Shown here in pieces: positions 8,237 to 13,465 of a stretch of 64,000 bases of DNA. The notes below the pieces were generated by a model. The model worked only from the letters and a program-made list of their open reading frames with translations. It searched no databases and was not told the DNA's origin. Made by a program: the position numbers and the translations under genes. Source of the DNA: Methanoculleus caldifontis (GTDB lineage Archaea; Halobacteriota; Methanomicrobia; Methanomicrobiales; Methanoculleaceae); NCBI RefSeq assembly GCF_032842345.1, contig NZ_WBKO01000001.1:1364001-1428000 (forward strand), in the 5' to 3' direction. The number at the start of each line of letters is the position of its first letter. Position 1 is the first letter of the stretch.

Positions 8237-8991
8237 TTCTCCGCGTCGTGTAATTCCCTTTTGAGTCGATCGATAGCATTGCTGGCGGCGGCGAACGCCT
8301 CCTGTCTGTGCTCTGCAAGTATAGCGAGATAGGTTATATCTTCTCCGGCATAGAGCCGCCCTTTCCGGTGATGGAACCGTACCCCGATGATTCCGGGGAC
8401 CGCTTCCATCTCCTGCCCGATACTCTCGGTCACGGCATCGACGGTCTCGTCGAACTCGAGGTACTCAGTATGCTCGGTCCCGCTCCACTCCCTGACGATC
8501 CCGTTGAACGTGAGGATCGCGCCTGCATGCGCAAGATCGTGCTCGCGCTTCAGATCCCTGACCAGCCCTTCGATGGTGTAGTAGTCCTCGAACGAGGGGA
8601 GCGCGGCGATCACCTCTTCGACGGAGGAAGGGTTCCGGAGCACGACGTTCTCGCTCTCCAGGTCGCCTATCACGATCCGCGGGAACGGCCGGGTCTTGAA
8701 CCCCTCGATGACGGCGTACTCGATCCCCATGTTGCAGAGTGTTTCCAGAGTCGAGTCGAGGTCGTTCTCGCGCCTGATGAGGACCGACTTCTCGCTGTCG
8801 ACACCTGTCGATAGAGCAGCATGTGCTTCATGGTAGATGGTGGTGTCCTTTCCGGGCTCGAGTCGGTATCCGTGGTGCCCGACATGCTTCACTGCCCCGA
8901 CGGTCCCATGTGCAGAGAGCGCCGGGATCAGGTTCTTTATGAATGTGGTCTTCCCGGTGTTCGAGCGGCCGACGATCTGTATGATCTTCAT
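8233..8991 (-). CDS. MobB-MoaE fusion: molybdopterin guanine dinucleotide adaptor + molybdopterin synthase large subunit
   Basis: 252 residues in two domains. Residues 1 to about 125 are MobB-like, with P-loop GRSNTGKTT (8-16), an AVKHVGHHGY segment and EGFKT. Residues about 130-252 are MoaE-like: GAILTFNGIVREWSG gives the conserved Arg of the active site, then YLEFDE, RFHHRKGRLYAGE and AEHRQEAFAAASNAIDRLK. MoaE transfers sulfur from MoaD to form molybdopterin dithiolene, and MobB binds GTP in the later nucleotide-addition step. The protein ends ten residues after the NAIDRLK helix, so the usual P-x-WK(K/R)E segment with the second active-site lysine of E. coli MoaE (Lys126) is absent. Start and stop overlap the neighbours by four bases each. 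Presumably serves tungsten/molybdenum enzymes such as formylmethanofuran or formate dehydrogenase. Confidence 0.88.
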   Translation of the reverse strand: MKIIQIVGRSNTGKTTFIKNLIPALSAHGTVGAVKHVGHHGYRLEPGKDTTIYHEAHAALSTGVDSEKSVLIRRENDLDSTLETLCNMGIEYAVIEGFKTRPFPRIVIGDLESENVVLRNPSSVEEVIAALPSFEDYYTIEGLVRDLKREHDLAHAGAILTFNGIVREWSGTEHTEYLEFDETVDAVTESIGQEMEAVPGIIGVRFHHRKGRLYAGEDITYLAILAEHRQEAFAAASNAIDRLKRELHDAEK

Positions 8992-9575
8992 GGTTCTTCC
9001 TCTTCGTCTTCGTCGTCTTCCTCTTCCTCTTCCTCGTCCCCCCCGTCCTTCGCTGCCGGGTTCTCCTCCTGGCCTGGCCTGGACTTCAGGACGACCGAGG
9101 CCGCCTCGGCCACGCCCCGCATCACCTCGGTGATCCGGTCCTCGACATCGATCTCGTCGTCGATGTTCAGGCTCGTCCCCTCGACCTCGAGCAGGAACCT
9201 CGCGACCTCGCTTGCCTCAAAGAGGATCTCGTCGAGTTCTTCCGCGGTGAAGAAGCCGCACATGGCCCCGTAAAAGAATGTCGCCCCCGCCTTCTTCACC
9301 TTCTTCTTGAACGAACTCCTCGCCTGGTTGACCGCCTGCGGGGTGTAGGAGTCGAGCATGAATGGGCAGAGCTCCGGGAGATTCTCGCCGATGAACGTCA
9401 TCTCCGAGCCGCTGGTCGTCTTGAAGTCTGCGCAGAGGCGTGCGATCGCCCACTCGCGGGCGGTGATGTGGGTGTGTTTGCGCAGGAACTGGTTGACCCG
9501 CTGGTAGGTGGCGCCGTCCACTTTCTTGAATTTCTGGTACTTGTTCGGGTCTCTGGTGCTGTCGGGCTCTTCCAT
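8988..9575 (-). CDS. DUF5806-like conserved archaeal protein with acidic tail
   Basis: 195 residues. The N-terminal region (KYQKFKKVDGATYQRVNQFLRKHTHITAREWAIARL is the start of the domain, about 12-47) and the central helices (PELCPFMLDSYTPQAVN, VKKAGATFFYGAMCGFFTAEELDEIL) look like a compact conserved archaeal domain that I associate with DUF5806; the family name is from memory and not tested. The last 20 residues are almost pure Glu/Asp, encoded by a CTT/CCT-rich stretch at 8993-9045. No catalytic motif is evident. AGAGGAT lies 7 bases before the ATG at 9575. It heads an operon with the MobB-MoaE fusion and the hexomutase, overlapping the next gene by four bases. The function is unknown. 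Confidence 0.8.
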   Translation of the reverse strand: MEEPDSTRDPNKYQKFKKVDGATYQRVNQFLRKHTHITAREWAIARLCADFKTTSGSEMTFIGENLPELCPFMLDSYTPQAVNQARSSFKKKVKKAGATFFYGAMCGFFTAEELDEILFEASEVARFLLEVEGTSLNIDDEIDVEDRITEVMRGVAEAASVVLKSRPGQEENPAAKDGGDEEEEEEDDEDEEEEP

Positions 9576-10337
9576 TTTATCTATCCTCTTGTTGGTGTTG
9601 CTATTTCAATAGGGTTGTTGGTGAGGGGCGCGGGTCTGCCTATCGGTTCCTGCTGCCTCCAGGGCAGGTCCCGTAACTGCACTCCCAAAGTTACGTATAG
9701 CACTATGTGGTTTATCGGTGCCCCCTGCCCCGCCCTGGTCGGGTGGATCGCCCCGTGGTTTCGGCCGGGCTCACGACCCGATCTGCGGGCGATCTGCGGG
9801 TATCGAGTCCATGCGGGTCTGCCCCTTGTCGGCGGGGCGGCGGCGCCCTCCCCGAAGATCATCCCGGGCTCTCGACGCACGCTTTTTCTCGTAACCCGTC
9901 CGCTTTCCGGGGTCGTGGGGGCCGGCCGGCGGGTTTCGCCACCCGGATGTCCGATCAACTCTCCGCGTCGGATGCTGCCCTCCCTCCGCGAGGTGGGCCT
10001 GAATCGCACTATTCGCCGTACGGCTACCGGGCCGCCCTCTCCCTTTCGCGGGGGCGGGCCTCGCCCTCCGGTATGTTCGGTGCGGCCGGGCTCTGCTCCC
10101 CGTGCTGTGCCGGTGTGCTGGCTGGTTCTCGGGGCGGGGATGGTGGGCGAGGTCCGGATCTCTGATTGGCGGACCGGGCTCTCCCGGGCATGCCCCGGTC
10201 GTCGGGCAGTCGATCTGAGGGGTGGCCCCCTCTGACTGGGCGGCCTCGTATCGCACCTATGGGCCCTGATCGGGACGTCCTCCTATACAGACATCGTCGG
10301 GCGGCTGATCGTGCCCATAATCCGCTCTATGGCGGTC

Positions 10338-10346
10338 ATTTATATG
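10338..10346 (+). promoter_or_regulatory. TATA box of a candidate non-coding RNA
   Basis: ATTTATATG is a good archaeal TATA element in a GC-rich stretch. It predicts a transcription start near 10367-10369, just before the 5' strand of the helix described for the downstream RNA candidate. No coding start follows it. Confidence 0.4.
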
Positions 10347-10366
10347 TGGGCGGGCGGAGGGTGCTC

Positions 10367-10537
10367 TGTGGTGCCGGAGGTTGCTGCAGATTGTTCACTT
10401 TCACCCTGCGCGGCGGGGGATTCATATACTCAGAAGAAAAAGTATTCATCAGGGTCTGTTTCCCGTCCACCCGGGAGAGCAACCCCATACCTCCGAACAC
10501 CTGATGCCTCCAGCATCACTGAGATACACTTTTTTTT
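10367..10537 (+). ncRNA. Candidate structured non-coding RNA, about 165-170 nt
   Basis: The unit has promoter, structure and terminator in the right order and no coding frame. CGGAGGT (10375-10381) is complementary to ACCTCCG (10489-10495). The overlapping GGTTGCT (10379-10385) is complementary to AGCAACC (10478-10484), so a long closing helix with an internal bulge, or two alternative helices, can form. TGATGC-CTCCA-GCATCA (10502-10518) is a perfect 6-bp hairpin, followed after 11 bases by eight T residues (10530-10537), a typical archaeal terminator. The hairpin loop CTCC and the ACCTCC strand are both complementary to ribosome-binding sequences, so base pairing with mRNAs is conceivable. 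I do not recognise a known RNA family. The ends are estimated. Confidence 0.4.
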
Positions 10538-11005
10538 ATCGTGGGTCTTTCCCTCTGCGGGGATTTGCTGTCGCTCCGTTCCGGTAGCGGAACGCCATCT
10601 CGCGCCGGCGCAGCAGCCTTCCGGGGGGTGTCTGGATATCCTCGCCTTCGTCCGGGCTTCGAGGGGTTTCCCGGGTCCGGGGTCCGGCCGATCTCTTCCG
10701 GCGGGCCGGCTGTCCGGATGGATGCAGTTTCGGCCGGCCATTTCCTGCCGGGGATCTTCGGGGGCGTTCTCCTATCGCTATGCTCCTGCCGCCGTGTGCC
10801 CCTCTCTCGCTATCGTCTTCGATGCGGCCAGCAGGGCGATTATGGGCTGAGGTGGGGTCTGCCTGGCGTTATCCTGTCTGGGGTCCGGCCGCCCCGTATG
10901 CCTGGGGGCATGGGTTCTGCCGTGATCTCCCTCTCGGCCCGCGGCCGCCCGGGCGGGTGTGTCCCGCAGTCCGGCGGGTCCGGTGTTGCCCCCTGGAAAT
11001 ACCCG

Positions 11006-11033
11006 ATTGCGGGGAATAGTGATTTACCGCAAT
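11006..11033 (+). other. dif-like recombination site next to xerA
   Basis: ATTGCGGGGAA, a 6-base centre TAGTGA, then TTTACCGCAAT. The right arm read backwards is ATTGCGGTAAA, so the 11-base arms match at 9 of 11 positions and the outer 7 bases are perfect. The 11-6-11 layout, 28 bp in all, is that of Xer recombination sites, including archaeal dif. It lies 33 bases before the xerA ATG. A plain transcription-factor palindrome in the xerA promoter is the main alternative. Confidence 0.45.
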
Positions 11034-11066
11034 TTTGATATGCTCCCCCATTCAACTTATAATCCG

Positions 11067-11990
11067 ATGGAAAACGCTCCTTTTTCCGAATGGCTCGAAC
11101 GCTTCAGCAGTTACCTCCGGATGCGGAATTACTCCCCCCGGACCATCAAGAAGTACGGTCAGACCGTCGAACGCTTCGCCCGGTACGCCTGGCTCAGGCA
11201 GCATCCCGGTCCGGGCGGGATCCGGATCGATGAGGCTGCCCTCGATGCCGCGCCCCTCGATGCGGATGTGAACGTCTCCGCTGCCCTCGTCACGGATTTC
11301 TTCTCGTTCATCTCGGAGGGCCGGGATTACAAGCCAAAGACTCTCCACCGGATGGTCTCGACGCTCTCCTCGTTCTATCGCTACCTCTACGCGCAGGGCG
11401 TCGTTGTCGCGAACCCCATGATCGGGGTGGAGCGGCCCCGGATCAAGAATCAGGAACTGAAATACCTCAAGCACAGCCAGGTTCTCCGGCTGATCAACTC
11501 CATCGAGAACGGGCGTGACAAACTGATCGTCCGGCTCATCTACGCCACGGGCGTCCGTGTCTCCGAACTCTGCTCGATACGCGTCGAGGACATCGATTTC
11601 GAGGAGCAGACGATCCGGGTCAAGGGAAAAGGCGACAAGATCCGGACGGTCTTCGTCGACGAAGATACCCTCCAGACGATCGACGAATTCATCGGGAACA
11701 CGATAGAGGGGCCGCTCTTCGTGGGCCAGCAGGGCAACCCCCTCTCCCCCCGGACCGTCCAGCACATCTTCCGGCAGAATGCTCCCGCCGGGATTACGCC
11801 GCACAAGATCCGGCACTCCTACGCGAGCGAGCTCTACCGGCGCTCAAAGAACCTCCGCGTCGTCCAGGAAAACCTGGGGCACTCCTCCATCAAGACGACC
11901 GAGATCTACCTGCATACGGACCTCGATGAGCGGAGGAACGTCTATAAACAGTATTTCCCGCTCTCGAACGGGAAGAAGTCCGGTGAGTGA
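11067..11990 (+). CDS. xerA: Tyrosine recombinase XerA
   Basis: 307 residues from ATG 11067 (MENAPFSEW); ATG 11040 would add nine residues. The N-terminal SAM-like core-binding domain (about 5-115) has the YSPRTIKKY pattern. The catalytic domain (about 130-300) has all active-site residues: Arg164 in ATGVRVSEL, Lys188 in the KGKGDK beta-hairpin, His246 and Arg249 in TPHKIRHSYASEL, His272 in NLGHSS and nucleophile Tyr281 in TTEIYLHT. This is the small, complete Xer type that resolves chromosome dimers in archaea by recombining dif. A dif-like palindrome lies 33 bases upstream. There is no clear ribosome site, so the mRNA may be leaderless or nearly so. Confidence 0.93.
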   Translation: MENAPFSEWLERFSSYLRMRNYSPRTIKKYGQTVERFARYAWLRQHPGPGGIRIDEAALDAAPLDADVNVSAALVTDFFSFISEGRDYKPKTLHRMVSTLSSFYRYLYAQGVVVANPMIGVERPRIKNQELKYLKHSQVLRLINSIENGRDKLIVRLIYATGVRVSELCSIRVEDIDFEEQTIRVKGKGDKIRTVFVDEDTLQTIDEFIGNTIEGPLFVGQQGNPLSPRTVQHIFRQNAPAGITPHKIRHSYASELYRRSKNLRVVQENLGHSSIKTTEIYLHTDLDERRNVYKQYFPLSNGKKSGE

Positions 11991-12000
11991 GCTGATCTCG

Positions 12001-12520
12001 ATAAACCGTATGGTGCTATATGGGTTTGGGGCGGCAGAGGATCCTCCGGCCCCGGTCTCTTGCCCCTGGCATCTGTTGGGGGTCTGCCTGGATGCCACGC
12101 TCACTTCTATCGAATGATGTGGTTGAGGGCAGTCCTCCGGCCCTCTCTTCGTGTTCTTCGAAGCCTGATGGCTTCTCATGCTCGCTTACGCTCGCACTTC
12201 GCACCAGATGGTGCTCGAGCTCCGGCGCTTCGGCCCATCGCACTTCGAAGCCTGATGGCTTCTCATGCTCGCTTACGCTCGCACTTCGCACCAGATGGTG
12301 CTCGAGCTCCGGCCCTTCGGCCCATCGCACTTCGAAGCCTGATGGCTTCTTAAACTCCGGTTCTACGAACCGTCGTCCTTCGCGCCTTCGCGTGAGTTAA
12401 ATGCCGGAGATTGTAATGCAGCCTCGCGCGAAACCGCGAAGTGTGGGATGCACCTCCGACCGTTTCCCCGCTTCTTTCATCTGGCAACGCTCAAATGAGA
12501 GGAAGACCTACCGTATCGGT
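12001..12520. other. Gene-free stretch carrying tandem palindromic repeats
   Basis: Between the xerA stop and the epimerase start. Bases 12157-12350 hold the 87-bp tandem repeats listed separately. From about 12350 to 12520 there is a second compositionally odd section with words such as CTTCGCGCCTTCGCG and CGCGCGAAACCGCGAAG, which can form small hairpins. An open frame runs rightward through the repeats, but it only encodes the same 29 residues over again and is best explained by the repeat length being a multiple of three. Confidence 0.7.
12157..12350. repeat. Two 87-bp tandem repeats plus a partial third copy
   Basis: Copies begin at 12157, 12244 and 12331, each with TTCGAAGCCTGATGGCTTC. 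The first two are complete and differ at a single base in the GGCGCTTCGG/GGCCCTTCGG section; the third stops after about 20 bases. Each unit contains perfect small palindromes, GAAGCC-TGAT-GGCTTC and GCACCA-GA-TGGTGC, and the word pair GCTCGCTTACGCTCGCAC. There are no unique spacers, so this is not CRISPR. It resembles extragenic palindromic repeat elements. Proximity to xerA and the dif-like site may or may not be meaningful. Confidence 0.85.
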
Positions 12521-13465
12521 ATGCGCTACATCGTCACCGGCGGTGCCGGGTTCATCGGGTCCAACCTCGCAGAACATCTCTCACGCGACCACGAGGTCGT
12601 GATCGTCGACGACCTCACCTCCGGGCAGCGTCAGAATATCGAGCGCATCATGGACAACTCCCGCGTGACCTTCGTCGAGGGGAGCGTCACCGACCTCGAC
12701 CTCCTGATGGAGATCTTTGCTGGTGCGGACGGCATCTTCCACCAGGCGGCGATCGCTTCGGTCCCCCGCTCCGTGAAAGACCCTCTCGAGACGAACGCGG
12801 TGAACGCGGCCGGGACCGTGAACGTCCTCTGGGCCGCGAAAGAGTGCGGCGTCCCGTCGGTCGTCACGGCCTCCACCTCGGCGATCTACGGGGACGACCC
12901 GGTCTTCCCCAAGCGGGAGACGATGGCGCCGACTCCGCTCTCTCCCTACGCGGTCTCGAAACTCGCGGGCGAGTACTACGGGAAGGTCTTTGCCGACCTC
13001 TACGGCATCCGGACGGTCTTCCTCCGTTACTTCAACGTCTTCGGGCCCCGACAGGACCCGAACTCCGAGTACGCCGCGGTGATCCCGAAGTTCATCACCC
13101 GGTTGCTCGACGGGAAGCCCCCGATCGTCTACGGCGACGGGGAGCAGACCCGTGACTTCATCTTCGTCGCGGACGTGGTGCAGGCGAATATCAGGGCGAT
13201 GGAGAGCGAGGCCCGGGGAGTCTTCAACATCGCCGGCGGCCGCCGGATCAGCCTCAACGAACTCGCCGCCAGCCTATCGGAGATCACCGGCGTAGACCTC
13301 CGGCCGGTATACGAACCGCCGCGAGCGGGAGATGTGCGCGACTCTCTCGCGGAGATCTCCCGGGCGGAGGAGGCCTTCGGGTTCTCCCCCCGTTACACCC
13401 TCGAAGCAGGGCTCCGCGAGACCGTGGAGTGGTTCCGGGATGGTCGGGGCGGAAGACGCCGGTGA
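12521..13465 (+). CDS. NAD-dependent nucleotide-sugar epimerase/dehydratase (GalE-like)
   Basis: 314 residues from ATG 12521, an extended short-chain dehydrogenase. The nucleotide-binding GGAGFIGS motif is at 7-14 and the acidic NAD-selecting VDDL at 29-32. The catalytic set is Ser118-Ser120 in TASTSAIYG with Tyr143 and Lys147 in SPYAVSKLAGE. RYFNVFGPRQDP and the C-terminal substrate domain (DFIFVADV, FNIAGG) match UDP-glucose or UDP-GlcNAc 4-epimerases of archaea. The frame is open upstream to 12401, but that part is repeat-derived and unlike any enzyme N-terminus, so ATG 12521 before RYIVTGG is preferred. With the ManC-like gene nearby it probably supplies sugars for surface glycans or N-glycosylation. 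The exact substrate is not determinable. Confidence 0.9.
   Translation: MRYIVTGGAGFIGSNLAEHLSRDHEVVIVDDLTSGQRQNIERIMDNSRVTFVEGSVTDLDLLMEIFAGADGIFHQAAIASVPRSVKDPLETNAVNAAGTVNVLWAAKECGVPSVVTASTSAIYGDDPVFPKRETMAPTPLSPYAVSKLAGEYYGKVFADLYGIRTVFLRYFNVFGPRQDPNSEYAAVIPKFITRLLDGKPPIVYGDGEQTRDFIFVADVVQANIRAMESEARGVFNIAGGRRISLNELAASLSEITGVDLRPVYEPPRAGDVRDSLAEISRAEEAFGFSPRYTLEAGLRETVEWFRDGRGGRRR

Follow-up and report, generated by a model that had tools for sequence, protein, structure and literature searches.

A very probable chromosomal dif site directly upstream of xerA in Methanoculleus caldifontis and its relatives in the Methanomicrobiales

Does the short palindrome directly upstream of xerA in Methanoculleus caldifontis serve as the chromosomal dif site of the XerA recombinase? 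The site occupies positions 11006-11033 on the forward strand of the window, by which we mean the whole 64,000-nucleotide stretch of DNA analysed, and reads ATTGCGGGGAA TAGTGA TTTACCGCAAT (left arm 11006-11016, centre 11017-11022, right arm 11023-11033). Its inverted-repeat arms pair at 9 of 11 positions around the 6-base centre, and 33 bases separate its right end from the xerA ATG at 11067. A sequence-only reading had described this 28-bp, 11-6-11 site upstream of xerA, and the description held. It had also noted that the arms reproduce the geometry of Xer sites, but a 9/11 palindrome is no evidence by itself: the window contains 18 such patterns with at least 9/11 matches, where a Markov model expects 20.2. 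Palindrome statistics alone were therefore dropped as proof of dif, the chance of meeting such a pattern within 150 bp upstream of xerA being about 0.026. The site is significant because it is conserved among relatives, not because of its geometry.

An archaeal dif is expected to have two 11-bp inverted arms around a 6-bp centre, to be conserved in related genomes, to have a cognate XerA in the genome and to occur once per chromosome. The first expectation is met, with arms pairing at 9/11 in the window and up to 11/11 in relatives. The third is met by xerA (11067-11990, forward strand), which encodes a 307-aa tyrosine recombinase that scores 293.9 bits against NCBIfam NF040815 (recomb_XerA_Arch, cut-off 220) and matches the PDB XerA chains 4a8e and 5hxy. 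The catalytic set R-K-H-R-H-Y is complete (R164, K188, H246, R249, H272 and Y281), so that a family profile above its cut-off and intact catalytic residues, which together define XerA, are both present. It is the sole strong match in the genome (2.6 Mb, four contigs).

Conservation and copy number were evaluated in Methanoculleus. Across 24 loci of the genus the mean top-base frequency is 0.97 in the site vs 0.46 in the 99 bp immediately upstream. The site is single-copy, with 0-1 mismatch, in 33 of 35 genomes, where it sits at a constant offset of 61 bp before xerA; the remaining two (G020 and G023) have either no xerA match or an xerA truncated at its 5' end. A search of the M. caldifontis genome for a better or second 11-6-11 match, with two relaxed patterns, gave no credible candidate. 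The expectations of conservation and, for this genome and Methanoculleus, of a single copy are thus met.

The arrangement extends to the order Methanomicrobiales. In most of 60 further sampled genomes from five families, the site stands at the same 61 bp, counted after correcting for the start of the protein alignment. The order consensus is nTTGCGCAGAA-TRGnTA-TTCTGCGCAAA, and it resembles bacterial dif, agreeing at 20 of 28 positions with E. coli dif. The arms vary in sequence yet remain inverted repeats in most of the order, with GCGG/CCGC in Methanoculleus, GTCGCAGAA/TTCTGCGAC in Methanofollis-like genomes and TTGCGCAGAA/TTCTGCGCAA elsewhere. This co-variation is beyond what shuffling produces: pairing holds for 85% of cells, and changes on both sides affect 18 cells vs 9.1 in shuffles, a number that 0 of 500 shuffles reach, with slid-arm controls far lower. 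With a profile scan at the permissive cut-off of E up to 1, 207 of the order's 231 genomes give a match, some of these matches being weak. Degenerate sites occur in a few genomes (G039, and contig 18 of G101), and second dif-like sites exist in some genomes of other genera, several of them within mobile elements; most genomes have no other dif-like site in the order-wide scan. We consider it very likely, jointly with the identification of dif itself, that xerA and dif form one module in the Methanomicrobiales.

Natural insertions exactly at the orthologous site provide a different kind of evidence. In two Methanoregula-like genomes, G193 and G195, two sites lie 8.5-8.7 kb apart beside xerA, with a virus-like element placed exactly within dif. 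The 8.5-kb element of G193 is flanked by ACTTCGCAGAA-TGTCTA-TTCTGCGCAAT and GTACCTCAGAA-TGTCTA-TTCTGCGCAAA, and its sister genome G194 carries an uninterrupted ACTTCGCAGAA-TGTCTA-TTCTGCGCAAA with the same flanks. The element ends are hybrid half-sites, the distal one joining the host left arm to TTCTGCGCAAT and the proximal one joining GTACCTCAGAA to the host right arm. G195 has the same hybrid arrangement with the centre TAGGTA, which is also the centre of the intact site of G192. Hybrid half-sites together with an uninterrupted sister site are therefore natural evidence of recombination, for which an operator alone gives no explanation, and the orthologous site is likely to recombine in nature, although the evidence from these hybrid sites is indirect.

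One product of the element is a P-loop protein that shows weak similarity to the packaging ATPase STIV B204 (E=0.007) and a PHROG terminase match at 1.1e-10; the others are small virus-like proteins. This packaging ATPase is found within the order only in G193, G195 and G139, at most 10 kb from xerA in all three; G139 retains one recognisable site. No recombinase was recognised among the element proteins examined in G193 and G195, and bacterial IMEX integrate at dif using host Xer enzymes (PMC5357621), so that integration by the host XerA is inferred, from the missing recombinase and by this analogy. In G047, G049 and G196 a full palindrome stands 0.6-1.3 kb upstream while a TTCTGCGCAA half-site is still present at xerA, which probably reflects old insertions followed by decay, again by inference. 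Searches of IMG/VR and of phage records with the element proteins returned no relatives, and the Methanoculleus-specific dif pattern has no match among viral contigs.

Dif-like sites were also seen away from this context. A generic dif pattern matched one Microviridae-like viral contig (L182, 3775-3798), where the palindrome is presumably a bacterial XerCD target; being of bacterial type, it was considered unrelated. Sites distant from xerA were observed at L165:8189, L168:5666, L170:8159 and L172:2128, with a separate tyrosine recombinase nearby in L165, L168 and L170 and phage-like genes in L170 as well. These four might be multimer-resolution sites of mobile elements.

Taken as a whole, the site at 11006-11033 is very likely the chromosomal dif of XerA, with dimer resolution as its most probable role, even though no binding, cleavage or recombination data are available. 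Its uniqueness, its conservation, its co-varying arms and the precise insertions that relatives carry at the orthologous position are shown; XerA as the acting enzyme, dimer resolution as the main role and the right arm's contribution to the xerA promoter are inferred. On this model, XerA, encoded 33 bp downstream, would bind both 11-bp arms and exchange strands at the edges of the 6-bp centre, and the recombination would resolve chromosome dimers, most likely its main function, while the right arm would also contribute to the xerA promoter. XerA of Pyrococcus abyssi recombines its own dif in vitro, and dimer resolution has been proposed as its role (PMC2958812). The sequence-only claim that dif lies immediately before xerA has thus withstood all tests made in this analysis, and its proposal of a dimer-resolution locus is retained as the most likely, inferred, role.

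One alternative, considered very unlikely, is that the palindrome is an operator only, through which XerA or another protein controls xerA transcription, with the recombination site located elsewhere. In its favor, the 61-bp spacing to the ATG is constant, the right arm abuts a TATA-like box, and this arm is better conserved than the left and stays beside xerA in genomes whose full site has been displaced. However, the hybrid half-sites flanking the insertions record strand exchange at this palindrome, most genomes lack another dif-like site, and several genomes preserve an intact palindrome apart from the promoter. A second rival, that element-encoded or transient integrases merely happen to target the site and tell us nothing about XerA, can draw on second dif-like sites in elements with their own tyrosine recombinase (e.g. 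L165 and L170), but it is very improbable given that no recombinase was recognised in the G193 and G195 elements inserted at xerA-dif and that conservation of the site across the order is independent of elements.

The identification as dif does not preclude a regulatory contribution of the right arm. The TATA-like box of xerA, TTTGATAT (11034-11041, forward strand), whose promoter function is inferred from its sequence, directly abuts this arm, and other genera have TTTATTTA, TTTAATTA and similar sequences at the equivalent position. Per-column information also indicates that the right arm is the more conserved one. Because it adjoins the TATA-like box, is better conserved and persists at xerA after displacement of the full site, the right arm may double as part of the xerA promoter; this remains a possibility inferred without expression data. 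The suggested link between recombination and xerA expression is plausible to that extent.

Whether this dif marks the replication terminus could not be established. GC skew is flat in the window and in 20-kb stretches sampled from the M. caldifontis genome (G000), G001, G058 and G157, and coding-strand bias gives no usable terminus signal in 20-kb stretches of the last three. The distance from dif to the best Orc1/Cdc6 gene is 42-170 degrees, with a median of 105, in 24 genomes, some of whose lengths were rounded; the angles are scattered and the species are not independent, so that no meaning is attached to their KS value. Thermococcal dif sites have been placed at 122-142 degrees (PMC2958812). 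GC skew and Orc1/Cdc6 positions therefore do not place dif at the terminus. A second Orc1/Cdc6 gene was noted 24-106 kb from dif in 14 of 24 complete or near-complete genomes.

A 21-bp motif, ATAAACCRTATGATGCTATAY (pattern form ATAAACC[AG]TATGATGCTATA[CT]), brackets the locus. The left copy, ATAAACCACATAGTGCTATAC, lies at 9695-9715 on the reverse strand, and the right copy, ATAAACCGTATGGTGCTATAT, at 12001-12021 on the forward strand, 10 bp past the xerA stop; both point outward from dif. We searched 34 genomes with at most 2 mismatches, using the reversed pattern as a control. Most Methanomicrobiales genomes searched hold about two to four copies, whereas the reversed control seldom matches, and none was found in the two Methanocella-like genomes searched. 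Among copies less than 12 kb from dif, 80 of 82 point outward, and the motif occurs on both sides in 28 of 32 genomes; the binomial value for this bias ignores the relatedness of the genomes. Polar copies opposed across dif, as would be required of a Ter-like motif, are thus present. Inversion of the xerA-dif segment relative to its neighbors leaves the outward rule intact, and the G193 and G195 elements carry their own weaker copy, outward relative to the distal full dif. Exceptions are the Methanospirillum-like genomes G197, G201 and G207, with one copy near dif and an outward pair at a distant locus, and G035, where the left copy is missing. The second outward pair of Methanospirillum-like genomes (L227, L228 and L229) is spaced 7-9 kb apart around a conserved gene block that appears aminoacyl-tRNA-synthetase-like by eye and includes neither dif nor xerA.

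The function of the motif is yet to be delineated. It may be a polar fork barrier, an accessory site for XerA at dif or a regulatory element of neighboring genes, all of which are only possibilities; no protein has been identified. A promoter element of the DUF5806 gene is weakened, though not excluded, because a second copy lies across dif from that gene and the Methanospirillum-like motif lies beyond glmM. In a bolder reading, the outward pair would form a polar archaeal chromosome-terminus system, either as a fork trap confining fork fusion to dif or as polar sites at which a XerA-controlling protein is loaded; with no fork-arrest or protein data, we regard this reading and both of its variants as unlikely. 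Archaea have so far yielded no termination pause site (PMC7174701). The motif resembles bacterial Ter sites (Tus-ter, B. subtilis) in being short, polar and inverted in orientation, around dif here and around the termination region for Ter (PMC10331603), but unlike them it has no shown terminator protein, fork arrest or terminus position.

A 28-bp dif and XerA are already known kinds, and the comparison with described systems locates what differs. Thermococcales such as P. abyssi likewise have a 28-bp 11-6-11 site, a single XerA and a single copy per chromosome (PMC2958812, PMC8371274); their dif, however, lies away from xerA and near skew optima, whereas the present site immediately precedes xerA and GC skew gave no signal. 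In the Sulfolobales, a distant archaeal lineage, dif is predicted close to xerA and has a 13-bp conserved sequence on one side, an adjacency contrasted with the Euryarchaeota, where it was reported absent (PMC2958812). The assertion that archaeal dif usually lies elsewhere in the chromosome therefore holds only in part, being true for the Thermococcales. Unlike that of the Sulfolobales, the Methanomicrobiales dif abuts the xerA promoter and has an inverted 21-bp motif on both sides at 0.5-11 kb. Among bacteria, XerS/difSL of streptococci and XerH/difH also use a single recombinase, and XerS immediately adjoins its own site (PMC5357621); difSL differs in having 31 bp, an 11-bp centre and FtsK dependence, while archaea have no FtsK homologue (PMC2958812). 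In contrast to IMEX, the element described here is virus-like, resides in a methanogen and has an STIV-B204-like packaging ATPase, albeit on a weak match, and its dependence on XerA is inferred.

A review mentions xerA/dif modules in some archaea (PMC5357621); the open-licence literature searched contains no order-wide Methanomicrobiales module, no virus-like insertions in such a module and no outward motif pair. A palindrome that is at chance level on its own has become, through comparison, a well-supported dif for an entire methanogen order. Close xerA-dif linkage is extended beyond the Sulfolobales, and natural genomes show an archaeal dif both before and after integration. The polar motif pair around dif opens two questions to experiment: by what means dimer resolution is restricted in archaea that lack FtsK, and whether these archaea have an organised replication terminus.

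Several features of the neighborhood were recorded in addition. The gene of a DUF5806 protein (8988-9575, reverse strand; Pfam PF19122, E=1.8e-72) is near dif in most mapped loci; its AlphaFold model is all-helical with a mean pLDDT of 52.8, too weak for a fold search. The intergenic region 9576-11005 is long and A-poor (10.8% A, 24% T), and its counterparts in Methanoculleus relatives are similar in length (0.9-1.5 kb) and usually in skew. Inside this otherwise unconserved 1.4-kb region, a block of about 220 bp (10320-10540, forward strand) is conserved across Methanoculleus, and contains TTTATAT, a TATA-like sequence, at 10339-10345 as well as a run of T at 10530-10537. The block resembles a non-coding RNA gene, a possibility inferred from its sequence; an Rfam scan of 9000-12600 gave no match. 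In the Methanocella-like loci L156 and L157, dif-like palindromes (10/11) precede the estimated xerA start by 105 and 174 bp. In G101, a dif-like palindrome (L167:6354-8443) with outward motifs and DUF5806-mobB-glmM synteny stands beside a broken Xer-like gene, and a better xerA is on a different contig, the one with a degenerate site. Finally, downstream of xerA in the window, 12156-12357 consists of two 87-bp direct repeats of 99% identity and a partial third copy.
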